Below, one piece after another: positions 6,268 to 59,872 of a stretch of 64,000 nucleotides of DNA (positions are counted from its first letter, which is position 1; every line of letters starts with the position of its first letter). Both the position numbers and the translations under genes were made by a program. Source of the stretch: Styela clava (Eukaryota; Chordata; Ascidiacea; Stolidobranchia; Styelidae); assembly GCF_964204865.1 (NCBI RefSeq), contig NC_135261.1:8308001-8372000 (forward strand), given 5' to 3'. The notes under the pieces were generated by a model. It was not told where the DNA came from. It made no database searches and was given only the letters and a program-made list of their open reading frames with translations.

Positions 6268-7323
<1,056 letters not shown>

Positions 7324-8693
7324 CTATTGTTAGTAAAAATTATATACTATATTGAATCTTGAAAAATAAAAAGAATGATATCATATATCATCTCTGTCTT
7401 GACAAAGTAAATATAACATAAATCACCAGTATCATGATATATAAAAAAATAAAACCAATGAAACTAATTGAGTTTTGCCTGCACTTACTGAATAGACTCA
7501 AATATTGTAGTCATAAATCTTATTCATGTTTTCAGAGATATGCATTTAAATAAGACAAATAAAATGAAAATACATTTTGAATCTTTCTTTATCACAGAAA
7601 AATATTGCATACCGTGTTATAAATATGTTGTAAGAGAATATAAATAACTGAAATGTCAGAATAATATATCAATTAATTATTTAATAGGTTCTTTTTATTG
7701 CACTTGTCTACAAAATGAGCCCACCACCTCATTTATTCATAATAATACTTGAAAAAAAAAATTGATATAGAAATATTTATAGCAAGATATGCGGTGATCG
7801 TAAGACCCATTCGGGAAAGAAGTGTTACCTCAATCAGCGGGTGACAATCCAATATACATATTTCTCTACAGAGTGACAAGCATTGGGAACATATTCCAGC
7901 GGAAACATAACTTTTGTGCAAAGCATCCTCGATTACTGAGACTTTTGGGTATAAGCAAACACGAACATAAGTTCAAGCAGTAAAGAATTTTTTTTCATTT
8001 TTATGAAAGCAATTAAGAAATTTTTGTTTTCTTGGAGTCACCCTGTACATCCTCATAAAAATCCTATTAACAGTTCATTTTTATTAGAAAACATTTAATC
8101 CTTACTTGTAGTTGATGATTTCCATCAAAATTAAGATATGGTCCTTCTATAACATTTCTATATGAAATGAATTAACCCATTTACTACCCCAAGATATGTT
8201 ATGTGGAAAATTCATTAAACAGCTTCTTATACAAGTTAATTCCTGAGTCAAAAACCACCACATAGTTACTCAATCTCACAATGATGGTAGAAATGGATAG
8301 TATAAGAATTAAAAAAATAATTAAAATGATAATATATTATAAAAATAAAAAACAACTGACATGATTGTTATACTAATTCCACTCTTTTTTTCTTACTTCT
8401 TACTTAATTATACATTATTACCGAAGTGGATGCAAATAAACAACAATGATGAAGTAAAATGAATTCGATAATGTTCATTGAGCTTAACCTAGGTTTTTTT
8501 TCTATTATCGTTTTGAGGAATGTGAAAAATGATGCTCCTTACATTTGCATATAGACCCACATTTTAAAGTATCCATAATATGGATAAAATTCAACTTATT
8601 AATACATGAAAAATATTGAAACTTGTGAGGTGGTGAGTATCCTACTGTACTATCGAGTCTTCAAATTCTGAATTTGCACGCAGTGTAAAACCA
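7324..8693. other. Intergenic, nothing recognised
   Basis: This AT-rich stretch between TRAPPC3 and the MADF-BESS gene holds the TRAPPC3 promoter side. A lone GTCACCCTGTACATC at about 8,038-8,052 resembles a Tc1/mariner end, but I find no partner. Confidence 0.45.
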
Positions 8694-9500
8694 TCATTTT
8701 GATGGTATTACAATATTAGAAGTTCCTGGAGATTCATCATGTTCAAGTTCAGTCTTATACATCAATTTCATTATACCCATTTTTATCTCAAATTTTTGTT
8801 TTGGTTCCATTCGTTTTAAGGCTGTAGTCATACTTGACATGAATAAATCATCTTCATCTTGAGGGCATGTTGATGAATCTGAGGCAGCAGATGTTGGCGC
8901 CGACTGCTTTTCCTCCAATAGTCTCAGTATCTCAGGTATACAAGCAAGATTTTCTGTGTTACTATTCTTCGTCATTTTGTACTGAAAAACGTGTTTTCTA
9001 GGACGTTTTGGCAATGGTGGCATACCTTCAGAACATTCTGAAGAATCAGATAAATATACGCTTCCATTTGTTGTCATTGCAAATCCACCATTTCTATGCC
9101 TAATGATCTGTGGAACTGGCAATTTCAGATCATTTTCTGCAATTTCTTGAGTGTCTTGAATAACTGCACCTGACGAAGCTGAGTGATGTAATTTTGGTCG
9201 TAAGTGAGGCTGTATAAAATTCATAGCGTTGAAGAGATACCAATCCTGTTCAATGCCAGGGTTTGTCAACGACCTCCTCCATGTTCTGCAGTATTTATCC
9301 CGCAGCGATCTCCATCTGTCGGTAGCTTCTTTCGGGCGACATTGCAGCGTATTAGCGATATCCTGCCATATAGATTCTCGCAGCTCCTTTTGACGATACC
9401 CAACATGGCTATGATCAAATAACATCGGGTGTGATTTTACTAGAGAAATAAGTATTTCATCTTTGTTTATTAAATTTGACGAATCTGCCGACATCGACAT
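8694..9500 (-). CDS. MADF-BESS domain transcriptional regulator (Adf-1-like)
   Basis: This is an intronless frame of 268 residues. Residues of about 15-100 form a MADF domain, a Myb-related DNA-binding fold: it opens ILISLVKSHPMLFD, continues with IWQDIANTL and RWRSLRDKYCRTWRR, and closes near WYLFNAMNFI. Residues of about 217-252 match the BESS motif, the C-terminal protein-interaction segment: acidic DEDDLFMSSM followed by a basic, hydrophobic helix ending IMKLMY. The middle is Ser/Pro-rich with a PLPKRPRKH basic patch that may be a nuclear signal. The MADF-then-BESS order is that of Drosophila Adf-1 and relatives, which bind DNA and regulate transcription. The first ATG gives MSMSADSS, and a second Met at residue 3 is an alternative start. 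The target genes cannot be read from sequence. It could also be a domesticated transposon-derived regulator, since MADF families expand that way. Confidence 0.9.
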   Translation of the reverse strand: MSMSADSSNLINKDEILISLVKSHPMLFDHSHVGYRQKELRESIWQDIANTLQCRPKEATDRWRSLRDKYCRTWRRSLTNPGIEQDWYLFNAMNFIQPHLRPKLHHSASSGAVIQDTQEIAENDLKLPVPQIIRHRNGGFAMTTNGSVYLSDSSECSEGMPPLPKRPRKHVFQYKMTKNSNTENLACIPEILRLLEEKQSAPTSAASDSSTCPQDEDDLFMSSMTTALKRMEPKQKFEIKMGIMKLMYKTELEHDESPGTSNIVIPSK

Positions 9501-9813
9501 GTTTGTTTGTATGCAAAAATGAAGCGAAATACGCGCAGAACGGCTGTTCTCACCAGCTGCTCAGCTCATAATATTCATTATCCAGACTGTTCTGGCATTT
9601 TCGCAAGCACCACTAATGACAGGTTAAAGGCAAAGTTTTTTTTTTTTTTTTTTTAAGGCAAAACTTTTCACACATACGATAAAAATTTGGTCAGACACTC
9701 TGTCCTAATGCGACCACGCAGTCGCTATTCCCTCTTTGGTTTGGCCGGCTGCGGCCATACAAACGCCCACGCGGACTTTTCGGCGCTCCGCGGCGTCGTA
9801 GTAGGGGCTAGGG
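9501..9813. other. Upstream flank of the MADF-BESS gene
   Basis: This holds the presumed promoter of the minus-strand gene. A 19-nt T run (about 9,636-9,654) is flanked by AAGGCAAA on both sides. The stretch 9,700-9,813 is unusually GC-rich for this window and ends with GGCTAGGG, the duplicated target of the next element. Confidence 0.5.
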
Positions 9814-11060: not shown

Positions 11061-14000
11061 CTAACGGTACCGGTAGTTTTTGATTAAATATTTTTTATAT
11101 GTATTCTTGAAAGTCGTGTAGCCATGTGATTTTACTTCATGTGGAATATTGTTCCATATTTTAATGCCCATATACTTGATTGAGTTTTGTGTTCTTGCAG
11201 TGGAATATCTGGGCACAAAATAATTTTCACGCGCAGAAGATCGGGTGTAGTGTGTGTGTGTTTTAGACTGCTTAGTGAAATATTTATCGAATGCTTCGGG
11301 TAGGGATTTATTTTGGTGTTGATGCATTAGTTTTGCAATTTCAAAATTGAATAAGTCTGTTAATTTTAGAATGTTGAGTGACGAATAAAGATGATTAATA
11401 TTAGTTCTAGGTGCTGCATTGCAAAGAGATCTAGCAATTCGGTTTTGTAAAACATTAATTTGTCTTAAATATTTTTGTGCAGCAGCTCCCCATGCTGCGA
11501 TTCCATACTGGACATAAGATTGAAAAAGTGAAAAATACACAGAGCGCAGGGTAGATGTAGGCATGTATTGTTTGAGCTTGTAGGTGATACCAACTGCTCT
11601 GGTTATTTTTTTTACCACATGCTCAATATGTTTGTCCCATTTAAGACCAGAATCAATAAAAATTCCCAGGTATTTGTATGATAACACATTTTCTAATTTG
11701 GTACCATCAATTTTTATTGACAAGTCATGGTTTATCTGATGCTTTTGAGGAGTGATTATCATGGATTTCGATTTTTCAATATTAACTGTCAGTTTGTTTG
11801 ATACCATCCAATCATGCACCTTCATCATTTCATAGTTCACATTATTCTCTAAAGTTGGAATTGAATTATGACTGGAGAGAAGGCCGGTGTCGTCGGCGAA
11901 TAATTTCGTTAATAAGTTTGAGCAGTTGGTGAGATCATTGATATATGTTAAGAAAAGGATTGGACCTAAACATGATCCTTGTGGGACGCCACAAACTATT
12001 GGTAAAGTCTCAGATGTTACTTCACCAATTTTTACAAATTGTACTCGGTTTGTTAGGTAGCTCTTTAAAAGTGATTGGGCGGGTCCACGAAATCCATAAT
12101 TAAATAGTTTATGAAGCAAAATTTTGTGGTCAACTGTATCAAACGCTTTCTTTAAATCAATGAAAACAGAACAAACAATCTCATTATTTTCTAATTTGTC
12201 ATAGATGTATGACATCATGTCTAAAATAGCATGGTTAGTTGAGTGGTTGTCCCTAAATCCAAATTGAGACTTATTAATTATATTATGTTTAGTAATAAAT
12301 TTTACCATTCTTTCGTATATTAGTTTTTCAAAAAGCATGTTTAAACAAGAAAGGATAGAAATCGGTCTGTAGTTAGGTATTAATTTATTATCACCAGATT
12401 TGAAGGTGTTCGGTGTTACTCGAGCAATTTTGAAAACTGAAGGGTACATACCCAACTGTATTGACGCATTGAACAAAATCATAAGGGCCGGCGATATTAT
12501 GTCCACAATATGCTGAAGGAAACATGATGGAATGTTATCAGGACCAACAGCTTTGCCCTTTTTCAGGCTTAAAATACCACATATAATTTCAGAGAGTGAA
12601 ACAGGCTGAAGAAATATGGTTTGTGAGATCTTCAGATGTAAATATTTTTTGTAATCCGAAACATCATTAAATTCACTGGCTAATTTTGGACCGATGTTAG
12701 TGAAATAGCTGTTGAACTCATTTGCTATCAGCAATTTGTCAGAAGAAATAATTTTATTTTGTAACATAATTTCTGTAATAGTATTCTGTTTGTCATTCTT
12801 AACATTTACTATTTCTTTGATTGTTCTCCATGTTTGCTTTATATTGTTTCGGTTTTGCTTTAGTGTATTATGATAATAAAGTTGTTTAGCTTTGTTTATT
12901 ATTCCTTTCAGTTTGTTGCAATACCTCTTGTACAAATGCTGCTGTGACATGTTACCTTTCAAATAGTACTTATTGCGCATTTTATTTTTATTTTTGATTG
13001 ACACTCGAATACCCTTGCTTAACCATGGTTTTTTCTTAATTTTCAGGTCTTTTCTAGATAGCATTTTCATAGGGGCATGTTTGTCAATAAGATTTTTGAT
13101 TTTGAAGATAAAATCATCACATAATGCATCAAAGTTTTCCCTATTGGGTACTATTGTAGAAGACCAGCTGGTGAAGATTGAATCAGCATCCTCTCGGAAA
13201 TTGTCGATGCGAAACTGTTTCATGTCTCGTTTGTATCGAGGTTCGTTACGACTGTTGAGAGATATGTCGGAAATAGAACACAAAACTGGAAAGTGGTCGG
13301 TTATCGAGCAGGATATGACATAAGCATGGATTTTTTTATGTATGATGTTGGTGTATACATGATCAATTAATGTGCAAGATGAACTTGAGACTCTGGTAGG
13401 TTTTGTGATGATCTGCACCGTGCAATATGAAGATATCATATCCATGTATTCAGATATGGATTTGTTCAAGGAATGTTTCAAGAGGTTTATGTTGAAATCT
13501 CCAAGCAAAATGAATTGTTTGTTCGATATTCTTTCAAGAACAGCAGAAAGAGCACTTGTGAAGGTTGGAATATCATTTCGTGGATGTTTGTATAGAATGC
13601 AAATAATGAGTGTTTTGACTGTTTTATGGTTATCCGAGTTATTTAACTCTATCCAGAGGTCTTCGCAATCTGGATGATTCAATTTTATATCATGGATAAT
13701 CTTGAATTTTAAGTTGCTTCGGATATAGCATCCTACCCCTCCAGCATTTGTATCAGAGGGTTGATGAATGAAGTTATAACCAGGAATGTTGATTTTTGCC
13801 AAGGGGTTGTGTTTCAACTTGGTCTCACTGATTCCAATGATATGAGGTGGGTGTTGGAATTCAGACAGAAGATTTATCAAATAATCGAAATTTCTCTGGA
13901 TTGACCGAATATTCATATGGAAAATAGAGAGATTACTAGGATTGGAAATAGTCGATATTTCTTCTATTTCAAGAGTATCACATGAGAAGTTTGTCATGGA

Positions 14001-14261
14001 GTTGAAATTAAATAATATGGGGTCATTTTCTAGACATGGTTGTTGAGAGCCAATTGAATTGGAAAACAAAGCCTCATTTGAATGTTGCATTGACAATTGA
14101 GTTCGAGTACAAGATGGACAGGTATTCGAGATGCAATATATATTCCCTTCAGAGGTTGCACAATCATTATGAAAAGGTTTCAAACAGAAGGCACAACAAA
14201 AATAAGATTCATTTGCTCTACAAAGTCTATTACATATGGTACATTGGTTGCCCAATGACAT
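11061..14261 (-). CDS. LINE ORF2: zinc finger, endonuclease, reverse transcriptase
   Basis: This is an uninterrupted frame of 1,066 residues. Residues of about 8-55 form a PHD-like zinc finger (CTIC, then FCCAFC, H-x2-C and CPSC). An apurinic/apyrimidinic-type endonuclease follows at about 110-330: FHMNIRS, the metal-binding Glu in GISETKL, GDFNIN, and the catalytic His in TDHFPV. The reverse transcriptase occupies about 530-820, with GPDNIPSCFL, FKSGDN, NYRPISILS, KAFDTVDH, GVPQGSCLGPILFL and the active site LFADDTG. A C-terminal domain typical of the CR1/L2/Jockey superfamily follows. All catalytic residues that I can check are present, so the element may be capable of target-primed reverse transcription. 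The stop codon lies within a CCGGTACCG palindrome. Confidence 0.93.
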   Translation of the reverse strand: MSLGNQCTICNRLCRANESYFCCAFCLKPFHNDCATSEGNIYCISNTCPSCTRTQLSMQHSNEALFSNSIGSQQPCLENDPILFNFNSMTNFSCDTLEIEEISTISNPSNLSIFHMNIRSIQRNFDYLINLLSEFQHPPHIIGISETKLKHNPLAKINIPGYNFIHQPSDTNAGGVGCYIRSNLKFKIIHDIKLNHPDCEDLWIELNNSDNHKTVKTLIICILYKHPRNDIPTFTSALSAVLERISNKQFILLGDFNINLLKHSLNKSISEYMDMISSYCTVQIITKPTRVSSSSCTLIDHVYTNIIHKKIHAYVISCSITDHFPVLCSISDISLNSRNEPRYKRDMKQFRIDNFREDADSIFTSWSSTIVPNRENFDALCDDFIFKIKNLIDKHAPMKMLSRKDLKIKKKPWLSKGIRVSIKNKNKMRNKYYLKGNMSQQHLYKRYCNKLKGIINKAKQLYYHNTLKQNRNNIKQTWRTIKEIVNVKNDKQNTITEIMLQNKIISSDKLLIANEFNSYFTNIGPKLASEFNDVSDYKKYLHLKISQTIFLQPVSLSEIICGILSLKKGKAVGPDNIPSCFLQHIVDIISPALMILFNASIQLGMYPSVFKIARVTPNTFKSGDNKLIPNYRPISILSCLNMLFEKLIYERMVKFITKHNIINKSQFGFRDNHSTNHAILDMMSYIYDKLENNEIVCSVFIDLKKAFDTVDHKILLHKLFNYGFRGPAQSLLKSYLTNRVQFVKIGEVTSETLPIVCGVPQGSCLGPILFLTYINDLTNCSNLLTKLFADDTGLLSSHNSIPTLENNVNYEMMKVHDWMVSNKLTVNIEKSKSMIITPQKHQINHDLSIKIDGTKLENVLSYKYLGIFIDSGLKWDKHIEHVVKKITRAVGITYKLKQYMPTSTLRSVYFSLFQSYVQYGIAAWGAAAQKYLRQINVLQNRIARSLCNAAPRTNINHLYSSLNILKLTDLFNFEIAKLMHQHQNKSLPEAFDKYFTKQSKTHTHYTRSSARENYFVPRYSTARTQNSIKYMGIKIWNNIPHEVKSHGYTTFKNTYKKYLIKNYRYR

Positions 14262-14300
14262 TATAATAAGAGTTTCAATAAAAAAAAATTAGGTGTGACT

Positions 14301-15323
14301 CTATTTAATTAAATTCAGGTCACCTTCATTCTTGATGAGTATTGGTCTGAAAAAGTCATTTTTCTTGACTAGGATCCTCCCACTTGATGTCCAAATGCTT
14401 GAGTAGCCACATTCGTTTTTCTTTTCTCTCGCTTGATAAAATAGATCTCTTGTGTAATCCGTTAAATTTTCTACTATAAACATGTTGGTAGGGTATCCAG
14501 AGTCTTTTGGAATAAGCTTCAAGTTTCTTCTATTTTTCATTATTTGGCTGATAACCCTTCTGTTAGAAAATTTGATTATTAAAGGGGGTGGTCTTTCAGT
14601 TTTTATGTTTGGCTGAGTCGATTGGTTTTTGTATCTTGTGTTGAGCCTGTGTGAATTAACTATATCTGTTTCTTTAATGTCAACTTGAATAAAAGAGCAA
14701 ATTCTTGTGATTACTGCATCAGTGTTTTCTTTTGTTGTAACAGGGACTCCATGGAATTCCAGGTTTTGGAGTCTAGAGCGCCTTTCTTGATCATGCTGGC
14801 GTTCCGCATAATACTGCAGGTCGTCCTCAAGCTCATCAATACGCTCTTCCAGGCTTTTTATCCGTTTTTGATTAGAGGATGTAGAATCTTTTAATTTATC
14901 AAGACTTTCTAAAATTGAGTCAAATTTGTTTGACTGGAATTCCTGAATTTTTTTGATTTCAGATATGTCATTCTGTATTTCAGCAACAGATTCAAGTTTT
15001 CCAAAGATTTTTTGGAGAGAAGCCTCGACTGACATAAGTGACTCCTGTATATAGGAAATATTACCATCACCAGGTGTTGATTGGTTTGAGAGATCAAATT
15101 TGTCATTAAGGAATTGCTCTATCATAGTAGGCAGCTGCACTTTGATTGCATTGAATATTGAGGAATGGAGTACAGGTAGCAGTGAGCTTGAGTCGATTAA
15201 CCCCTTGGATGTCGATGGTGACGAATCTGACATGCTTACAATTGCCGTTTTTGCTTGTTCAGTTGGACTATTCCTCTTTGAAGATTGCTTCTTTTCATGA
15301 TTTCCTTTTTTGTTTTCACTCAT
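14301..15323 (-). CDS. LINE ORF1: coiled-coil RNA-binding protein
   Basis: This frame of 340 residues lies directly upstream of ORF2. The N-terminal 40 residues are basic and Ser-rich. A heptad-rich coiled coil runs at about 90-180 (KRIKSLEERIDELEDDLQYY lies within it). It is followed by an RRM-like segment starting near LQNLEFHGVP and ending with IWTSSGRILVKK. This layout matches the nucleic-acid chaperone ORF1 proteins of L1 and CR1/L2 elements, which trimerise on element RNA; that function is family knowledge. No disabling changes seen. Confidence 0.85.
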   Translation of the reverse strand: MSENKKGNHEKKQSSKRNSPTEQAKTAIVSMSDSSPSTSKGLIDSSSLLPVLHSSIFNAIKVQLPTMIEQFLNDKFDLSNQSTPGDGNISYIQESLMSVEASLQKIFGKLESVAEIQNDISEIKKIQEFQSNKFDSILESLDKLKDSTSSNQKRIKSLEERIDELEDDLQYYAERQHDQERRSRLQNLEFHGVPVTTKENTDAVITRICSFIQVDIKETDIVNSHRLNTRYKNQSTQPNIKTERPPPLIIKFSNRRVISQIMKNRRNLKLIPKDSGYPTNMFIVENLTDYTRDLFYQAREKKNECGYSSIWTSSGRILVKKNDFFRPILIKNEGDLNLIK

Positions 15324-15930
15324 GGTGTTGTTAGAGCAGGATGTATTATATTATCTATATTAGATTAACTCTAGTTTTAAATCTTAATCAAATAGCGAAT
15401 AATTCTTTCTTAACGTGAATCACGAGCTCACGTTACAGTATTTAATTAGATTTATGATCGACGTATAAATACGACTTGGTATCTTTCAATAAAAACTAGT
15501 GTGGATAAATGTTTTAAGATTTGTATTCTGTGTGTTGTGGAAATTTACGAATAAAAACATATAGAGATTTTTAACGCATCTTCATTCACGTGGGCGTTGA
15601 AGCTGAAGGGTGAACGGGTGACTTACAAGTCAGAGACAATCTACAAATTAGCAATATACGGTGACATCACATTCATTTACCAATCATATATGCTATACGA
15701 CAACTAAACTAAAACCAAATTTCGATGTTTAAGCTAAAAATAGCTTAAAGAATTTGTTGAGATCGCGATTAAATTTAGTTTTGGCATGAGGCCTATTGCT
15801 TTCCACTTTTGCTTTTGTAAATATTGTTCATGAAATGTAACTTTTACATCACACTTACATGGCCCGCCAGACTCGATGAGCAAAATCGTCGGACCGAGGT
15901 TCAAAAACCTTGCCCACCCATGGGCTAGGG

Positions 15931-45923: not shown

Positions 45924-46374
45924 GGCTCGTTGGTCTAGGGGTAGGGGTATATATCTCCCACTTAGCGGATGTGATGAATCGGAAGCTTCGCGGTGGATGG
46001 CATGCTGTGTGCAATTTTACGCAGTATGTACGGAAGCCGGGAGTGGTGGAAGTTGTGTTGTGCTCTGCGTGGCATAGACAGAAGCCCCGGAATAAAGCAA
46101 TGCTGTGACAAACAGCATTTGACGAACCCCGGGGTGGAAGTTTGTGTCTAGCAGTGGCGCAGCAAATACTGAAGCCTCCATAAGTATATGACTGCTGCTC
46201 ACGCAGTGGCATGCTTATGAAGCGTTATACCGATATGACTCGGATATGACGTGTCTTCAAGACACTGATCCGTGCTACTGAAAAAATTCTGATTCGTAAT
46301 AAAAAAAAAAAAAAAAAAAAAAAAATTCTCGCTTTGGGTGCAAGAGGTCCCGGGTTCAAATCCCGGACGAGCCC
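45924..46374 (+). pseudogene. tRNA-Pro gene split by a retroposon
   Basis: The 5' part (45,924-45,943) stops in the D loop. The 3' part resumes at TTCTCGC (46,326) with the UGG anticodon and a perfect T arm and acceptor. The base run TGA of the normal D arm is missing at the junction. Confidence 0.9.
45944..46325 (+). mobile_element. Poly(A)-tailed retroposon of a structured RNA
   Basis: The insert is about 380 bp and ends with AATAAA running into 25 A residues (46,301-46,325). The middle folds strongly: AATGCTGT (46,099-46,106) pairs with ACAGCATT (46,112-46,119), enclosed by CCCCGG (46,085-46,090) and CCGGGG (46,129-46,134). Further out is a weaker match of GCATAGACAGAAG with a TTTGTGTCTAGCAGTG-type strand. 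No target duplication was found after the A tail; AGGGGTA is repeated at the left junction. I do not recognise the source RNA. Confidence 0.7.
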
Positions 46375-46598: not shown

Positions 46599-46973
46599 AT
46601 TTTTTTAATAGGGAGATCTAATAAATTTGTTATGTCTGCATAGACTTCCATTATATTAAATATTTCGTTTTGAACATTGCCTTTTGTTCAAATCCGGGAC
46701 GATTCCTCACTATTGTATAACTGCCCAGTCGAGATCAAATTTTTACCTTATAATAACAATTTCTCATCAATCTGACAGATTGTCCCATCATGTGTTTTTT
46801 ATGTTTTATCTCAATTTATGAACTCCAACTCAGGAGCCCATACAAGATCAAATCTTTACTTAATAATAACAATTTCCATCAATCTGACAGATTGTCCGAT
46901 CATGTGTTTTTTTTCATGTTATATCTTAATTTAGGAACTCCACCTCAGGAGTAATGCTTCCATGGACGTGTGT

Positions 46974-47061
46974 CCTTCGATAGCTCAGTTGGTAGAGCGG
47001 TGGACTGTAGTGATACAAAGCTGATATCCATAGGTCGCTGGTTCGAATCCAGCTCGCAGGA
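46974..47061 (+). tRNA. tRNA-Tyr(GUA), minor defects
   Basis: The acceptor has TCGCAGG and the T stem CCAGC, one mismatch in each. Confidence 0.65.
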
Positions 47062-47310
47062 GCTTTTGAAACAGATGAAATTTGTAATTTTTAAGCAATA
47101 TATGATTTGAGTTTCACCCTTCCTCTCTCCGATTCTCTGTCTTACGTAATATATCGCAATGTTTCTATTTCTCCATTTCAATACTATCTTATCCTGTCAG
47201 TCCAAAATACCCCAATGTCTGAATAGAGTTTAAGCATTTCAAAAATGAACGCTGAAAATGTCGTTGTAAACCTCAAGCTATCATGTGATCCGATCATGTT
47301 TTTTTTTCAT

Positions 47311-47318
47311 GTTTTATC
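47311..47318. repeat. Left target-site duplication GTTTTATC
   Basis: Identical to 55,887-55,894. Together they reconstitute the normal spacer word GTTTTATCTCAATT of the array. The preceding T also matches, so 9 bp is possible. Confidence 0.88.
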
Positions 47319-47559
47319 ACCTCTGTGAAGCTAGCAGCAAAACACGAAATTGTGACTGACAGAATCGCAGAAAATACCCACGCGTAAAATTAAAAGTTCC
47401 CAATGATTTTTATAAGAAAGTGTATATTTAGATTAGTTTCACAATAGCAATTAAAGCAAAACAATCATTAACTACACTCCTCGTATTGTTAATATATGGT
47501 AAACAAGCTAAAGCGACAGTTACAGTGCACAAAATTTTTTTATAATTCTTTGAGAGATG

Positions 47560-50500
47560 TTTAAAAATGACTGAATTTTCGTCGTGTAACATGGTCGTTT
47601 CATGAAAACCTCCAATAAAGGCAGCATTGCAACACCATTGGTGAAAAGTAGAAACCTCAAAGATTCGATTTCAATATGTCAGAACAGTCTCAGCACGTTT
47701 TGACTTGACCATATATAATACTAAACATAGCGTATATTCTTCAATTTTTAAAACAATGTATATACAACAAATTTGAAACTGATTTTGTATTTCAATTAAA
47801 ATTACTGGATAGTTCATCAAAGAAGATATTTTTCTCTTTGTCACACAACAATAATGCACTTCATTAAACTTAGAATAAGTTGATTAAAGTCTGAAATACT
47901 AAAAAAAAATTTACGCCCTCTTGTGGATTCTTTGATAAATTTCACAAAATTATCGTTTTCGAAAGGGCGATTTCTCAAAAACCGCCAATAAAGGCAGCAC
48001 TACGACACATTCGAAGAAAAGCAGATACCCTATAGATTCGATTTTAATATGTCAGAACAGTAGCAGCACGTTTTGACTTGGCCAAATATAATTCCAAACA
48101 TAGCGTATATTTTTAATTTCATTAAAAAAATGTAGATGTGACATATTTAAAAACGGTTTGGTATTTCAACTAAATTTACTGGAAAATTCATCAAATACTT
48201 TCTTCTCTTGGGTATACAACAAAACTGTACGTTCATTAAACTTGGAATTAGTGTGCAAATGTTAAAATGCCAAAAAATGATTTGACACCCTCTTGTGGAT
48301 CCTTTTCGGAATTTCGAAAAATTATCGTTTTTGAAAAGGGCGATTTCTCAAAAACCGCCAATAAAGGCAGCACTACGACACATTCGGAGTAAAGCAGATA
48401 CCTTATAGATTTGATTTCATTATGTCAGAACAGTAGCAGCACGTTTTGACTTGGTCATATATAATACCAAACATAGCGTGTATTTAAACTGTTATAAACA
48501 ATGCAGACGTAACATATTTAAAACGGTTTGATATTTCAACTAAATTTTCTAGATAATTTATCAAACATCTTTTTCTCTTGGACATACATATATACTATTC
48601 GTTCAATAAACTTGGAATAAGTTACGGAAAGTATAAAATACCAAAAAGCATTTTACGTCCTCTTGTGGATTATTTTCAAAATTTCAAAAAATTATCGTTT
48701 TTGAAAAGGCGATTTCTCAAAAACCGCCAATAAAGGCATCACTACGACACATTCGGAGTAAAGCAGATACCTTATAGATTTGATTTCATTATGTCAGAAC
48801 AGTAGCAGCACGTTTTGACTTGGTCATATATAATACCAAACATAGCGTGTATTTAAACTTTTATACAAAATGCAGACGTAACATATTTAAAAACGGTTTG
48901 ATATTTCAACTAAATTTTCTAGATAATTTATCAAACATCTTTTTCTCTTGGACATATATATATACTATTCGTTCATTAAACTTGGAAAAAGGTTGCGGAA
49001 AGTATAAAATACCAAAAAGCATTTTACGTCCTCTTGTGGATTACTTTCAAAATTCCAAAAAAAATTATGGTATTTGAAATAGCGATTTCTCGAAAACCGC
49101 CAATAAAGGCAGCACTACGACACATTCGGAGTAAAGCAGATACCTAATAGATTTTATTTTATTATGTCAGAACAGTAGCAGCACGTTTTGACTCGGCCAT
49201 ATATAATACCAAACATAGCGTGTATTCAAACTTTTATAAACAATGCAGTCGTAACATATTTAAAAACGGTTTGGTATTTCAAATAAATTTCCTAGATAAT
49301 TTATCAAACATCTTTTTCTCTTGGACATACATATATACTATACGTTCATTAAACTTGGAATAAGTTGCGGAAAGTATAAAATACCAAAAAGCATTTTACG
49401 TCCTTTTGTGGATTATTTTCAAAATTTCAAAAAATTATCGTTATTGAAATAGCGATTCTCGAAAACCGCCAATAAAGGCAGCATTACGACACATTTGGAG
49501 AAAAGCAGATACCTTATAGATTCGATTTTAATATGTCAGAACAGTAGCAGCACGTTTTGACTTGGCCATATATAATTCCAAACATAGCGTATATTTTCAA
49601 TTTTGTTAAAAAATGTAGATGTGACATATTTAAAAACGGTTTGGTATTTCAACTAAATTTACTGGAAAATTCATCAAATACTTTCTTCTCTTGGGTATAC
49701 AACAAAACTGTACGTTCATTAAACTTGGAATTAGTGTGCAAATCTTAAAATGTCAAAAAATGATTTGACGCTCCTTGTGGATTCTTTTCGGAATTTCGGA
49801 AAAGCATCGTTTTTGAAAGGGCGATTTCTCAAAAACCGCCAATAAAGGCAGCACTACGACACATTCGGAGTGAAGCAGATACCTTATAGATTTGATTTCA
49901 TTATGTCAGAACAGTAGCAGCACGTTTTGACTTGGCCATATATAATTTTATCAACTATGTAGATGTAACATATTTAAAAACGGTTAGGTATTTCAACTTA
50001 ATTTACTGGATAATTCACCAAACACTTTTCTCTCTTGGTCATACATCAAAACTGTATGTTCATTAAACTTGGAATAAGACGGCAAATCCTAAAATAACAA
50101 AAAATGATTTGACGCTCTCTTGTGGTGTTTTTTTGAAGTTTTGAAAAAATATCGTTTTTAAAAGGGCGATTTCTCAAAAACCGCCAATAAAGGCAGCACA
50201 GCACATACGGAGAAAGGAAATACCATATAGATTCCATTTCATTATGTCAGAACAACAGCAGCACGTTTTTACTTGGCCATATATAATACCAAATATAACG
50301 TGTATTTACAATTTTATAAACAATGTACACGTAACATATTGTAAAAAGATTTTGTATTTTAACTAAATTTACTGGATAATTCATCAAACATCTTTTTTTT
50401 TGGGCGTACACCAATAATGAACGTTCATTAAACTTGGAATAAGTTGCAAATTGTATAAAACAACAAAAAAATGACTTACGCCCCATAGTAATTTTGTTTA

Positions 50501-50600
50501 ATATCTCGAACATACCGTTTTTGGAGTGGCGATTTCCACAAAACCGCCAATAAAGGCAGCACTACGACACATTCGAAGAAAAGCAGATACTCCATAGATT
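47560..50600 (+). repeat. Foldback arm 1: nine 370-bp repeats
   Basis: The core CCAATAAAGGCAGC recurs at 47,612, 47,984, 48,358, 48,727, 49,100, 49,469, 49,839, 50,182 and 50,547. Each unit also holds GTCAGAACAGTAGCAGCACG, TTGACTTGG and CATATATAAT. Two subtypes are interspersed: one with CATATATATACTATTCG, the other with ACAAAACTGTACGTTC. Confidence 0.9.
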
Positions 50601-53600
50601 TTGTTGAAATACCTAACCGTTTTTAAATATGTTACGTCTGCATTGTTTATAAAAGTTTGAATACACGCTATGTTTGGTATTATATATGGCCAAGTCAAAA
50701 CGTGCTGCTACTGTTCTGACATAATGAAACCAAATCTATAAGGTATCTGCTTTACTCCGAATGTGTCGTAGTGATGCCTTTATTGGCGGTTTTTGAGAAA
50801 TCGCCCTTTCAAAAACGATAATTTTTCGAAATTCTGAAAAGCATCCACAAGAGGGCGTCAAATCATTTTTGGCATTTTAAGATTTGCACACTAATTCCAA
50901 GTTTAATGAACGTACAGTTTTGTTGTATACCCCAGTAAAGAAAGTATTTGATGAATTTTCCAGTAAAATTTAGTTGAAATACCAAACCGTTTTTAAATAT
51001 GTCACATCTACATTTTTTAATAAAATTGAAAATATACGCTATGTTTGGAATTATATATGGCCTAGTCAAAACGTGCTGCTCCTGTTCTGACATATTAAAA
51101 TCGAATCTATAAGGTATCTGCTTCTCTCCAAATGTGTCGCAATGCTGCCTTTATTGGCGGTTTTCGAGAAATCGCTATTTCAATAACGATAATTTTTTGA
51201 AATTTTGAAAATAATCCACAAAAGGACGTAAAATGCTTTTTGGTATTTTATACTTTCCGCAACTTATTCCAAGTTTAATGAACGAATAGTATATATGTAT
51301 GTCCAAGAGAAAAAGATGTTTGACAAATTATCTAGAAAATTTAGTTGAAATACCAAACCGTTTTTAAATATCTTACGTCTGCATTGTTTATAAAAGTTTA
51401 AATACACGCTACGTTTGGTATTATGTATGACCAAGTCAAAACGTGCTGCTACTGTTCTGACATAATGAAATCATATCTATAAGGTATCTGCTTTACTCCG
51501 AATGTGTCGTAGTGATGCCTTTGTTGGCGGTTTTTGAGAAATCACCCTTTCAAAAACGATAATTTTTCGAAATTCCGAAAATAATCCACAAGAGGGCGTC
51601 AACTCATTTTTGGCATTTTAGGATTTGCACAATAATTCCAAGTTTAATGAACATACAGTTTTGATGTATGACCAAGAGAGAAAAGTGTTTGATGAATTAT
51701 CCAGTAAATTAAGTTGAAACACCTAACCGTTTTTAAATATGTTACATCTAAATAGTTGATAAAATTGAAAATTATACGCTATGTTTGGTATTATATATGG
51801 CCAAGTCAAAACGTGCTGCTACTGTTCTGACATAATAAAATCGAATCTATAAGGTATCTGCTTTTCTCCGAATGTGTCGTAGTGCTGCCTTTATTGGCGG
51901 TTTTTGAGAAATCGCTATTTCAAAAACGATAATTTTTCGAAAATTTGAAAATAATCAACAAGAAGGCGAAACATGATTTTCCGTTATTTCATACTTTCCG
52001 CAACTCATTCCAAGTTCAATGGACGTACAGTATATATGTATGTCCAAAAGAAAAAGATGTTTGATAAATTATCTAGGAAATTTAGTTGAAATACCAAACC
52101 GTTTTCAAATATGTTACGTCTGCATTGTTTATAAAAGTTTGAAAACACGTTATGTTTGGTATTATATATGGCCAAGTCAAAACGTGCTGCTACTGTTGTG
52201 ACACAATGAAATCAAATCTATAAGGTATCTGCTTTACTCCGAATGTGTCGTAGTGCTGCCTTTATTGGCGGTTTTTGAGAAATCGCCCTTTCAAAAACGA
52301 TAATTTTTCGAAATTCCGAAAAGGATCCACAAGAGCGCGTCAAATCATTTTTTGGCATTTTAAGATTTGCACACTAATTCCAAGTTTAATGAACGTACAG
52401 TTTTGTTGTATACCCAAGAGAAGAAAGTATTTGATGAATTTTCCAGTAAATTTAGTTGAAATACCAAACCGATTTTAAATATGTCACATCTACATTTTTC
52501 AATGAAATTGAAAATATACGCTATGTTTGGAATTATATATGGCCAAGTCAAAACAAGCTGCTACTGTTCTGACTTATTAAAATCGAATCTATAAGGTATC
52601 TGCTTCTCTCCAAATGTGTCGCAATGCTGCCTTTATTGGCGGTTTTCGAGAAATCGCTATTTCAATAACGATAATTTTTTGAAATTTTGAAAATAATTCA
52701 CAAAAGGACGTAAAATGCTTTTTGGTATTTTATACTTTCCGCAACTTATTCCAAGTTTAATGAACGTATAGTATATATGTATGTCAAAGAGAAAAAGATG
52801 TTTGATAAATCATCTAGGAAATTTTGTTGAAATACCAAACGTTTTTTGAATATGTTACGTCTGCATTGTTTATAACAGTTTAAATACACGCTATGTTTGG
52901 TATTATATATGACCAAGTCAAAACGTGCTGCTACTGTTCTGACATAATGAAATCAAATCTATAAGGTATCTGCTTTACTCCGAATGTGTCGTAGTGCTGC
53001 CTTTATTGGCAATTTTTGAGAAATCGCCCTTTCAAAAACGATATTATTTTGAAATTCCAAAAAAATCCACAAGAGGGCGTAAAATGATTTTTTCGGTATT
53101 TCCTACTTTATGCAACTCCTTCCAAGTTTAATGGACGTACAGTATGTATGTATACCAAAAGAAAATGATGTTTGATAAATTATCTAGTAAATTTAGTTGA
53201 AATACCAAACGGTTTTTAAATATGTTACGTCTGCATTGTTTATAACATTTTGAATACACACTATGTTTGGTATCATATATGACCAAGTCAAAACGTGCTG
53301 CTACTGTTCTGACATAATGAAATCAAATCTATAAGGTATCTGCTTTACTCCGAATGTGTCGTAGTGCTGCCTTTATTGGCGGTTTTTGAGAAATCGCCCT
53401 TTCAATAACGATAATTTTTCGAAATTCCGAAAAGGATCCACTAGAGGGCAAATCATTTTTTGGCATTTTAAGATTTGCACACTAATTTCAAGTTTAATGA
53501 ACGTACAGTTTTGATGTATGACCAAGAGAGAAAAGTGTTTGATGAAATTTAGTTGAAATAATTAACCGTTTTTAAATATGTTACATATACATAGTTGATA

Positions 53601-55640
53601 AAATTGAAAATGATATGCTATGTTTAGTATTAAATATGGCCAGATCAAAACGTGCTGTTACTGTTCTGGTTTGGTGAAATCGAATCTTTAACGTATCTGC
53701 TATTCTCCAAAAGTGTCGTATTGCTGCCTTTATTGGCCATTGTCCGAGAAATCGTCACTTCAAAAACGGCATGCTTGGGAAATTGAAAAATTATATATAG
53801 GTTGTAAGACATTTTTCACTTTTTCATACAATTTGCATCTTATTCCAAGTTTAATTAACACACAGTATCGGTGTTTGAAAAAGTAAGAAAACGGAATATT
53901 ACGATATTAGGTGAGTTTATTCGAAATACCAAACCTTTTCAAAATATGTGAACATCTACGCTATTCAAATATTTGAGATATACGCTATGTTTGGTATTAT
54001 AAATGGCCAAGTCAAAACGTGCTGCTACTGTTATGGTATAGTCAAGTCGAATCTAAAAGGTATTTGCTTTTTTCCGAATGTGTCGTAGTGCTGCCTTTAT
54101 TGGCGGTTTTCGAGAAATCGCCCTTTCAAAAACGATTATTTTTCGGAATTCAGAAAAGAACCCATTATAGAGAGCGTAAATTATTTTTTTATATATTTTA
54201 AACTTTCCCAATTAATTCTTAGTTTAATAAACGTACAGTATTCATTTTTGACAAAGAGAAAAATATATTTGATCAACTTTCCAGCAGCTTCAGTTGAAAT
54301 ACAAATCCCTATTAAATTTGTTACGTCGACAATGTTTATAAAACTGAGAATACACGCTATTTTGGTATTATATGTAGCCGAGTCAAAACATGCTGCCACT
54401 GTTTTGTTATAGTTAAATCAAATCTATAGGGTATATACTTTTTTTCCGAATGTGTCGTAGTGCTCCCTTTATTGGCGGTTTTCAAGAAATTCCCCTTCCA
54501 AAATCGATAATTTTTCGAAATTTTGAAAAGAATCCACGAGAGGGCGTAAAATATTTTTTTGGTATTTTATACTTTTCTTCTGCAACTCATTCTAAGTTTA
54601 ATAGACGTACAGTATTAATGTGTGACAAAGAGAAAAATATATATTTTATCAATTGTTCAGCAAATTTAGTTGACATACAATTCCTTTTTAAATTTTGTTT
54701 CGTCCACATTGTTCATAAAATTGAAGAGTATACGCTATGTTTGGTATTATATATTGCAAAGTCAAAACGTTCTGCTACCGTTCTGACATAATAAAATTGA
54801 ATCTATAAGGTATGTGCTTTTCTCTGAATGTGTCGTAATGCTGCCTTTATTGGCGGTTTTTGAGAAATCACTAATCCAAAAACGATAATTTTCGAAATTC
54901 TCAAACTAATTCAAGGGGGTGCGCAAAATTTTTATTATTACTTTATACTTTCTGAAACTTATTCTAACTTTAATAGACGTACAGTATTGATGTGCGACAA
55001 AGAGAAAAAGATATTTGATCAATTATCCTGCAACCATAGTTGAAATACAAACCCTTTTTTAATATGTTACGAACCTTTGTTTTAAAAATCGAGGAATATA
55101 CGCTATTTTTGGTATTATATATGGCCAAGTCAAAACGTGCTGCTACTGTTCTGGCATAATAAAATCGAATCTATAATGTATGTGCTTTTATCCGAATATG
55201 TCGTAGTGCTGCCTTTATTGGCGGTTTTCGAAAAATCGCCATTTTAAAAACGATAATTTTTTGTAATCCAGGACAGAATCCACTAGGAGTCGCAAATGAT
55301 TTTTTGCTGTTTTATACTTCCCGCAACGTATTCCGAGTTTAAAAGATGTACAGTATTAATGTGTGACAAAAAGAAAATGATATTTTATCCATTATCTAGC
55401 AAATTTAGTTGAAATACAAAATCAATTTTAAATTTGTTACGTCCATGCCGTTATTAAAATTTAGATTACACGATATGTTTGGTAATATATATGGTCAAGC
55501 CAAAACGTACTGCTACTGTTCTGTTATAGAAAAATTGAATTAATATGGTATCTGCTTTTCTCCAAATGTGTCGTGGTGCTGCCTTTATTGGCGGTTTTCG
55601 AGGAATCGAGGTTCCGAAAAGGATAATTTTCCGAAACTTT
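50601..55640 (-). repeat. Foldback arm 2: fourteen 370-bp repeats, inverted
   Basis: The inverse core GCTGCCTTTATTGG recurs at about 50,775, 51,147, 51,517, 51,887, 52,258, 52,629, 52,999, 53,369, 53,725, 54,092, 54,464, 54,842, 55,211 and 55,580. Units left of about 53.5 kb are well matched to arm 1. Those from 53.7 to 55.6 kb are clearly more diverged. Confidence 0.9.
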
Positions 55641-55886
55641 GTATTTGCGGAATACCTGAAAATTCATTTTTCGCTTAGTTAGTCTTTTTTTGAACACTAT
55701 TTTCTTGTTAAATTTAATGTATTCATTCAGTTTAAAGATTTTTCATCTATTTTCGTGACAATATTATATTTTGATCAGCATTTTCAATTTTCATATTTAC
55801 CTGTAAGTGAACACTATATGCGCGTTGAACCTATATTCAATGTGTAAAAATATTCTGGCTGAAAGTGCTGCTAGCTTCACAGTGGT

Positions 55887-55894
55887 GTTTTATC
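55887..55894. repeat. Right target-site duplication GTTTTATC
   Basis: Directly followed by TCAATTCATGAACTCCAACT, the normal continuation of the array spacer, so the empty site can be rebuilt exactly. Confidence 0.88.
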
Positions 55895-55942
55895 TCAATT
55901 CATGAACTCCAACTCAGGAGTAATGCTTCCATAGACGTGTGT

Positions 55943-56030
55943 CCTTCGATAGCTCACTTGGTAGAGCGGTGGACTGTAGTGATACAAAGCTGATATCCAT
56001 AGGTCGCTGGTTCGAATCCGGCTCGAAGGA
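55943..56030 (+). tRNA. tRNA-Tyr(GUA)
   Basis: All stems are perfect. The D loop ACTTGGTA is as at 37,036. First tRNA after the foldback. Confidence 0.86.
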
Positions 56031-56242
56031 GCTTTTGAAACAGATGAAATTTGTAATTTTTGCACAATATATGATTTGAGTTTCACCCTTCCTCTCTCAG
56101 GTTCTCTGTCTTGCGTAATATATCGCAATGTTTCTATTTCTCCATTTCAATACTATCTTATCATGTCAGTCCAAAATACCCCAATGTCTACATAGAGTTT
56201 GATTATTTTAAAATCAAGGCTGAAAATGTCGCTGTTTCGATG

Positions 56243-59255: not shown

Positions 59256-59559
59256 GCTTTTGAAACAGATGAAATTTGTAATTTTTAAGCAATATATGAT
59301 TTGAGTTTCACCTTTACTCTCTCCGATTCTCTGTCTTACGTAATATATCGCAATGTTTCTATTTCTCCATTTCAATACTATCTTATCCTGTCAGTCCAAA
59401 ATACCCCAATGTCTGAATAGAGTTTAAGCATTTCAAAAATGAACGCTGAAAATGTCGTTGTAAACCTCAAGCTATCATGTGATCCGATCATGTTTTTTTT
59501 CATGTTTTATCTCAATTTATGAACTCCAACTCAGGAGTAATGCTTCCATAGACGTGTGT

Positions 59560-59647
59560 CCTTCGATAGCTCAGTTGGTAGAGCGGTGGACTGTAGTGAT
59601 ACAAAGCTGATATCCATAGGTCGCTGGTTCGAATCCGACTCGAAGGA
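59560..59647 (+). tRNA. tRNA-Tyr(GUA)
   Basis: One T-stem mismatch (CCGAC). Otherwise the same as 44,322. Confidence 0.82.
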
Positions 59648-59872
59648 GCTTTTGAAACAGATGAAATTTGTAATTTTTACACAATATATGATTTGAGTTT
59701 CACCCTTCCTCTCTCCGGTTCTCTGTCTTACGTAATATATCGCAATATTTCTATTTCTCCATTTCAATACTATCTTATCCTGTCAGTCCAAAATACCCCA
59801 ATATCTGCATAGAGTTTAAGTATTTCAAAAAAGAAAGCTGAAAATGTCGTTGTAAACCTCAAGCTATCGATT

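Follow-up and report, generated by a model that had tools for sequence, protein, structure and literature searches.

The stretch of DNA analysed here, which we call the window, comprises 64,000 nucleotides of Styela clava contig NC_135261.1 (positions 8,308,001-8,372,000 of the forward strand); coordinates given without a contig label refer to it. Within an array of transfer RNA (tRNA) genes it contains a segment of 8,568 bp (47319-55886) that consists mainly of satellite repeats in two opposed arms, which raises the question of what this segment is and how it could have arrived there. We consider it probable, at roughly 80%, that the segment belongs to a family of giant cut-and-paste DNA transposons as a non-autonomous copy with an internal deletion, and that it was moved in trans by a protein of 1,817 amino acids encoded by a 28-kb member of the same family.

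The segment had been described in a sequence-only reading as a transposon-like insertion of 8.57 kb with a foldback-shaped body of inverted satellite, and this description holds. It is flanked on both sides by the exact 8-bp duplication GTTTTATC that had been noted, and a paralogous unit of the tRNA array carries one copy of GTTTTATC and no insert. The window by itself leaves a small ambiguity in the length of this duplication, since a C and a G adjoining the ends can be assigned to either side. The inverted ends, ACCTCTGTGAAGCTAGCAGCA at one tip and ACCACTGTGAAGCTAGCAGCA at the other, differ at one position as reported, but they are 21 bp long and not 20 bp. A search of the window with the end as a 22-mer, allowing up to three mismatches, found only the two tips of the element, and none of 100 shuffled windows contained a match. 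The parts of the element, its duplications and the empty site are as follows.

47311-47318, no strand: left target duplication, GTTTTATC, 8 bp, exact; the same letters stand at 55887-55894 and once in the paralogous empty site
47319-47608, plus strand: left end (LE), with the 21-bp terminal inverted repeat at 47319-47339 and about 250 bp of end-specific sequence
47609-50601, plus strand: left arm, eight full monomers and one partial monomer of about 370 bp, reading inward
50590-50612, no strand: head-to-head junction of the arms, common to loci L063, L060, L044 and (91.6%) L071
50602-55594, minus strand: right arm, one partial and 13 full monomers, inverted
55595-55886, minus strand: right end (RE), with the terminal inverted repeat at 55866-55886 and about 244 bp of end-specific sequence
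55887-55894, no strand: right copy of the target duplication, GTTTTATC
59353-59711, plus strand: paralogous empty site, a tRNA-array unit with one GTTTTATC and no insert, 98.6% identical to the joined flanks over 360 columns

The earlier estimate that two opposed arms hold about 23 units of 370 bp was accurate: nine repeat anchors lie in the left arm (plus strand) and 14 in the right arm (minus strand), while Tandem Repeats Finder (TRF) gave copy numbers of 8.2 and 13.6. The 21 full monomers (8 + 13) are 345-378 bp long and share 67-96% identity in pairwise comparison. Between the arms the longest exact inverted match is 162 bp and the best long register shows 89.9% identity over 2,343 columns; since the arms differ from each other, an artificial mirror copy is unlikely. 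Inversion at the tips is limited to 21 bp, and the following stretches of about 250 bp of LE and RE are unrelated to each other; the mirrored arms are therefore subterminal. The satellite had been called private, which was borne out within the 64-kb window only. The absence of a transposase was confirmed for the window copy, in which the longest open frame has 124 codons (mean 96, maximum 140 in 100 shuffles), but not for the family, as described below. A search of the element for known RNA families or short interspersed nuclear elements (SINEs) with Rfam (E up to 1) gave two matches, both under the gathering scores.

The sequence-only reading had proposed to search the genome for further copies that share the termini and have a target duplication, and such copies are numerous. 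The inner 17-mer of the ends occurs exactly 150 times in the 376.6-Mb genome, whereas its reversed control does not occur at all. The full 21-mers are of two types, LE (beginning with ACCT) with 63 and RE (beginning with ACCA) with 79 exact occurrences. Neighbouring exact ends up to 35 kb apart form 52 inward-facing pairs, all 52 of which consist of one LE and one RE; four neighbours are arranged otherwise. Because the ends fall into these two types and every pair combines them, the single mismatch between the window ends represents a standing difference between LE and RE. The spans of the pairs range from 541 to 28,240 bp with a median of 7.9 kb (the shortest is known from its span alone) and sum up to 440 kb or 0.117% of the genome.

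We read 20 elements, namely the window copy and 19 of the other 51 pairs, taken from contigs C1, C2, C8 and C9 (the latter two as far as listed). Exact duplications of 8-9 bp flank 18 of them: 16 have 9 bp, the window element and L062 have 8 bp. In L067 the 9-bp duplication contains one mismatch, and L069 has no clear duplication. The LE of the window element is 85.5-98.6% identical to the LE of 14 fetched LE loci, of which two match only partially. The repeat runs inward from the LE side in 19 of the 20 elements and from the RE side in all of them; L070 has no left-arm repeats, and in L069 a stretch of 3.6 kb near the LE consists of other sequence. Arms reach 7.9 kb and contain from no anchors (left arm of L070) up to 24, and altogether 230 exact copies of the 370-bp repeat core are present in the elements read.

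The gene-less form has itself been mobile. A stretch of 120 bp around the arm junction of the window element recurs in L063 (99%), in L060 and L044, where it lies inverted between the two ends (98%), and in L071 (91.6%), and the 9-bp duplications of these four elements differ from each other and from that of the window copy. Such recurrence of the junction at four loci with separate 9-bp duplications shows that it was the fused form without a gene that moved, and one fusion followed by several insertions would explain the shared junctions together with the differing duplications. A second junction is common to L047, L049, L053, L062 and L069 (84-96%), and four more junctions tested (L057, L064, L065 and L066) are not shared with others.

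A gene between the same ends, likewise suggested as a thing to look for, is present in a complete element of 28,240 bp on contig C1, which consists of a left arm of 7.9 kb, a middle of 13.6 kb and a right arm of 6.1 kb and is flanked by a 9-bp duplication. Its middle contains one intact frame of 1,875 codons, encoding 1,817 amino acids from the first ATG, as well as a weak monomer-like stretch near 10.0-10.3 kb. The left border of the middle recurs in L058, and the right border, inverted, in L067 and L046. Provided that the LE near a protein copy on contig C19 is part of the same element as that copy, the gene there is oriented oppositely to the C1 gene with respect to the LE. Together with the junctions and the L046 and L067 borders that occur in inverted form, this points to recombination between the arms, which would have flipped the inside of these elements. 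Ahead of the big frame there are stretches resembling exons of a second gene (L051 1-3700, C1:30744901 on); their GDE, IGKNN and DNLGH pieces are reminiscent of an SGNH-type hydrolase, but Pfam gave no match.

In the 1,817-amino-acid protein, Pfam detected a ubiquitin hydrolase (UCH, 5e-16) and a PHD finger (1e-6). Comparison of four related proteins of this genome (28.5-51.2% identical) revealed D523, D597, C643xxH646 and E858 as invariant, which we take as a putative DDE core of the CxxH kind. The region following this core matches SENP2 in a profile search at 1.8e-5 and thus appears Ulp1-like, with H1204, D1221 and C1269 invariant; as a single sequence it had no match in Pfam or PDB. The C-terminal region matches USP46 at 3e-16, again by profile. 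Pfam recognised a PHD finger in each of the other three related proteins, in two of these below the curated cut-off, and the hydrolase in two. Protein and ends are statistically linked: 64 scored matches were merged into 26 loci, and among these at least 26 loci eight have an exact end within 20 kb, for which the chance is about 8e-9 assuming evenly spread ends.

The satellite arrays themselves carry a record of this mobility. All 21 full monomers of the window element have their nearest relative in a different element (97.0-99.7% identity), compared with 75-96% within the element, and the same is true of 281 of the 363 monomers of the 20 elements. In satellites that are homogenised in place the pattern is the opposite, and the closest monomers lie in the same array. 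The outermost monomers are specific for their position: the first left monomer is closest to another first left one in 16 of 17 cases and the first right monomer likewise in 16 of 19. This specificity falls inward, to 3 of 15 for the fourth left and 8 of 15 for the sixth right monomer. The arrays seem to have travelled whole inside the elements. In viral contigs we obtained no matches for two monomer patterns or in a protein scan, and five isolated matches for the inner 17-mer of the ends; in prokaryote genomes the monomer core gave eight matches. Both sets of matches are taken for chance, which was not computed.

A second subfamily was found at C8:8390317, where the RE is followed by an array with a 196-bp unit, of which the 5.8 kb fetched contain 20 copies, then by a protein gene interrupted by one in-frame stop and, from 8404542, by the same array in inverted orientation; this element was read from its RE into the inverted array, and the span ends before its far end. 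Directly before the protein gene lies a second tandem array with a 126-bp unit (L076 4967-5590, C8:8396666 on). No similarity could be detected between the 196-bp and 370-bp units. The hexamer GCAGCA, which is also part of the ends, faces inward in both fetched arm parts of the 196-bp array (19 versus 1 and 0 versus 16) as it does in the window arms (16 to 0 and 0 to 22), which is suggestive of a motif common to both satellites and the ends. Two boxes of the 370-bp monomer are more conserved than expected by chance, the second of which contains the motif (p 0.0055). Likeness between ends and monomer beyond TAGCAGCA is not significant; the exception is the last monomer at the right end, which is truncated.

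Taken as a mechanism, the gene-bearing form would have its genes between an inward satellite array on the LE side and an inverted one on the RE side. In the lineage of the window element the gene block would have disappeared, with the two arrays becoming joined head to head, and this fused form would subsequently have moved to several sites. The protein of the 28-kb copy may bind the 21-bp ends, excise the element and insert it with a stagger of 9 bp, sometimes 8 bp; gene-less copies would most likely be moved in trans by the same protein. It might be possible that the many inward GCAGCA copies in the arms provide extra contacts for the transposase and load more protein, by analogy to what has been discussed for Galileo and Tetris. 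Recombination between the arms could then flip and delete the middle.

Several observations weigh against this interpretation. The evidence comes from one assembly, and 38 of the 142 exact ends have no partner. No exact end lies within 20 kb of 18 of the 26 scored protein loci, and the list of loci is incomplete because only 26 of 255 first-look candidates were scored. Among the scored loci there is a single close copy of the protein of the 28-kb element, on C19, with 88% identity and 14 in-frame stops. This copy (G000, C19:17736569-17742016, minus strand) has an LE 3.7 kb away. The core of the protein has no match in Pfam (E up to 10) and nothing better than E 0.88 in PDB; its assignment as a putative DDE core therefore relies on the invariant residues. 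The probability of finding GCAGCA in the 196-bp unit by chance is 0.053 (AGCAGCA 0.019), and with a chance of about 0.05 (0.02) the sharing of the motif is suggestive and not proven. Hexamers of the terminal inverted repeat in the 370-bp monomer gave p 0.038 for the most frequent one and 0.063 in total, and the alignment of the terminal inverted repeat with the monomer gave p 0.11.

The affiliation to hAT proposed in the sequence-only reading could not be upheld. hAT elements generate 8-bp duplications and begin with (C/T)A(A/G)NG. A foldback element of the hAT superfamily would agree with the exact 8-bp duplications of the window element and L062 and with short inverted ends of hAT-like length, but 16 of the 20 elements have exact 9-bp duplications against two with 8 bp, and the termini, ACC... 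or CACC..., do not fit the hAT start. Neither the whole protein (E up to 1) nor its core (E up to 10) has a hAT match in Pfam, and GTTTTATC, with a T at position 7, deviates from the target rule nTnnnnAn given for Hermes and hobo (PMC10368747, PMC8961557, PMC3276498); membership in hAT is thus very improbable. An as yet unproven Mutator-like membership fits better. The family might also belong to another DDE group with CxxH, such as P, Kolobok or Merlin, or form a superfamily of its own, since the D-D-CxxH-E set is common to several groups, a Pfam search of the core up to E 10 gave no Mutator-like element (MULE), and it is unusual for a protein, here of 1,817 amino acids, to combine PHD, Ulp1-like and USP-like domains. 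We regard this as rather unlikely. The duplications of the family fall into the range for Mutator-like elements (8-10 bp, mostly 9), the Mutator-like element Muta1 makes duplications of 8 or 9 bp in yeast (both PMC5225508), most foldbacks have been placed in Mutator (PMC4079207) and Ulp1 domains have been reported in Mutator elements (PMC2836005), as far as the consulted sections of these papers state.

For the arms, the main rival to a function as binding sites is that they are passive, grown by unequal exchange and tolerated as cargo with no role in the movement of the same family. With a probability a little short of even, this explanation has to be taken seriously: anchor numbers vary from none to 24, a 541-bp end pair exists, the motif statistics are weak, and fixed outermost monomers with more variable inner ones are expected of passive arrays with fixed edges. 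However, two subfamilies with unlike units keep both the inverted layout and the inward GCAGCA, and the two monomer boxes are conserved above chance. It is improbable that the inverted satellite was kept because its transcript, as a long hairpin, feeds small-RNA silencing. The arms are predicted to pair strongly: as DNA, 961 nt around the junction fold at -222 compared with a mean of -93 (standard deviation 5) for 20 shuffles, and the RNA fold predicted for a 4-kb piece from the centre has 1,678 pairs, of which 1,495 connect one arm with the other; yet insertion of end-defined elements spreads the family and needs no such role. We take one of the sub-threshold Rfam matches, MIR869 (E 1.8e-8), which overlies the arm junction, as the long hairpin itself. 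Long inverted repeats are also prone to misassembly. An assembly artefact is nevertheless extremely improbable given arms that are not identical, an empty site and duplication that are exact to the base, 52 end pairs on many contigs and the two-armed layout in 19 of the 20 elements.

Foldbacks with internal repeats are already known, among them Tetris, Galileo and Tm1; arms of this scale and the four-part protein look new. Rehavkus/FB4, a Repbase lineage of the Mutator clan, has 9-bp duplications and repeat-filled arms. It may already cover this family and is the likeliest place for an existing name. The family of the window element shares with foldbacks the long inverted arms with internal tandem repeats and the presence of gene-less copies; its arms, however, are not inverted up to the tips. 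Tetris from Drosophila virilis (PMC4079207) is similar in that it is non-coding and has long inverted arms in which tandem repeats of about 220 bp are embedded, 8-10-bp duplications, a proposed Mutator membership and repeats that also form satellite-like arrays. The Tetris arms are up to 1,735 bp long, and the allelic pair described has three or four repeats, whereas the arms found here extend to 7.9 kb with up to 24 anchors, have ends that are unlike beyond 21 bp and occur with a gene-bearing sibling. Galileo, a foldback of the P superfamily (PMC3573991), has long arms, about 210-bp tandem repeats in one subfamily that are discussed as secondary transposase sites, and arms that change by recombination, but its duplications are 7 bp and its arms measure up to 1.26 kb; its transposase contains a THAP domain (PMC3688188), which Pfam did not find in the 1,817-amino-acid protein. 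Tm1 (Mutator/Foldback) from root-knot nematodes (PMC3169594) resembles the family in its 9-bp duplications, asymmetric tips, tandem-repeat arms and one copy with a Phantom-like Mutator transposase beside gene-less derivatives; it differs in repeats of about 14 bp and a putative transposase of 496 amino acids. Muta1 from Aedes aegypti (PMC5225508) has the 8- or 9-bp duplications, subterminal tandem repeats and many gene-less derivatives, but its subterminal repeats of 12 bp lie in a true long terminal inverted repeat, and no satellite-length unit is described in the accessible part of that report.

In the part of the literature that was covered we found no description of satellite-armed elements this large or of a PHD-DDE-Ulp1-USP protein, which is not proof of absence, nor of the combination of this scale, unlike ends, recurrent unrelated satellites and a four-part protein. 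It is possible, with the odds leaning against it, that these elements represent a distinct lineage of giant eukaryotic DNA transposons with obligatory inverted-satellite arms. Each subfamily would then have built its own satellite around an oriented motif read by a single PHD-DDE-Ulp1-USP protein, satellites would arise repeatedly as transposon parts, and the transposase would contain SUMO- and ubiquitin-protease-like domains. The closer relationship of monomers between elements than within them shows that multi-kilobase satellite arrays move as fixed parts of transposons, which offers a direct and testable route for the birth and spread of satellites; precedents with shorter arrays are found in foldbacks and Helitrons in the accounts consulted. 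An unlike unit in the identical layout raises the question whether satellites are built up by selection for oriented binding sites. The presence of both a Ulp1-like and a USP-like domain in one protein is relevant to an older suggestion, as far as the consulted text of PMC2836005 presents it, that the ubiquitin pathway is involved in transposition.

The tRNA-gene array that received the window element extends over about 29000-64000 and consists mostly of Tyr genes, which bear introns, and of Pro and Arg genes (ARAGORN); the window contains 50 tRNA matches with Rfam and 35 with ARAGORN, all on the plus strand. The nearest genes on either side of the insertion are the following.

46973-47063, plus strand: tRNA-Tyr gene upstream of the insertion, 255 bp away
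55942-56032, plus strand: tRNA-Tyr gene downstream, 47 bp from the duplication

Because ARAGORN found no tRNA in 30 other fetched end loci, the array is probably an incidental target. Dada, a DNA transposon that targets multicopy RNA genes (PMC3706591), resembles the window copy in this location, but is described as having no terminal inverted repeats, inserting inside the RNA gene and making 6-7-bp duplications. It was rejected, since the window element has 21-bp inverted ends, sits 47 bp outside the nearest tRNA gene and belongs to a family with no tRNA in the 30 other fetched end loci. The flanks diverge from their paralogues by 1.4% near the site and by 4.8% over 2.6 kb; dating of the insertion from these values was dropped, as homogenisation of the array confounds the divergence.

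Elsewhere in the window, an insert of about 381 bp at 45944-46325 ends in 25 A, looks of SINE type and lies inside what by eye appears to be a split tRNA-Pro gene. Host-type genes are located at 6271-9560 (minus strand), with a TRAPP-component frame and a MADF/BESS protein frame, the latter of a type suggestive of an arthropod-like animal. An apparently intact long interspersed nuclear element (LINE) at 11064-15350 (minus strand) comprises an endonuclease-reverse transcriptase frame of 1,075 codons and a first protein of Baculo_FP type with 349 codons.

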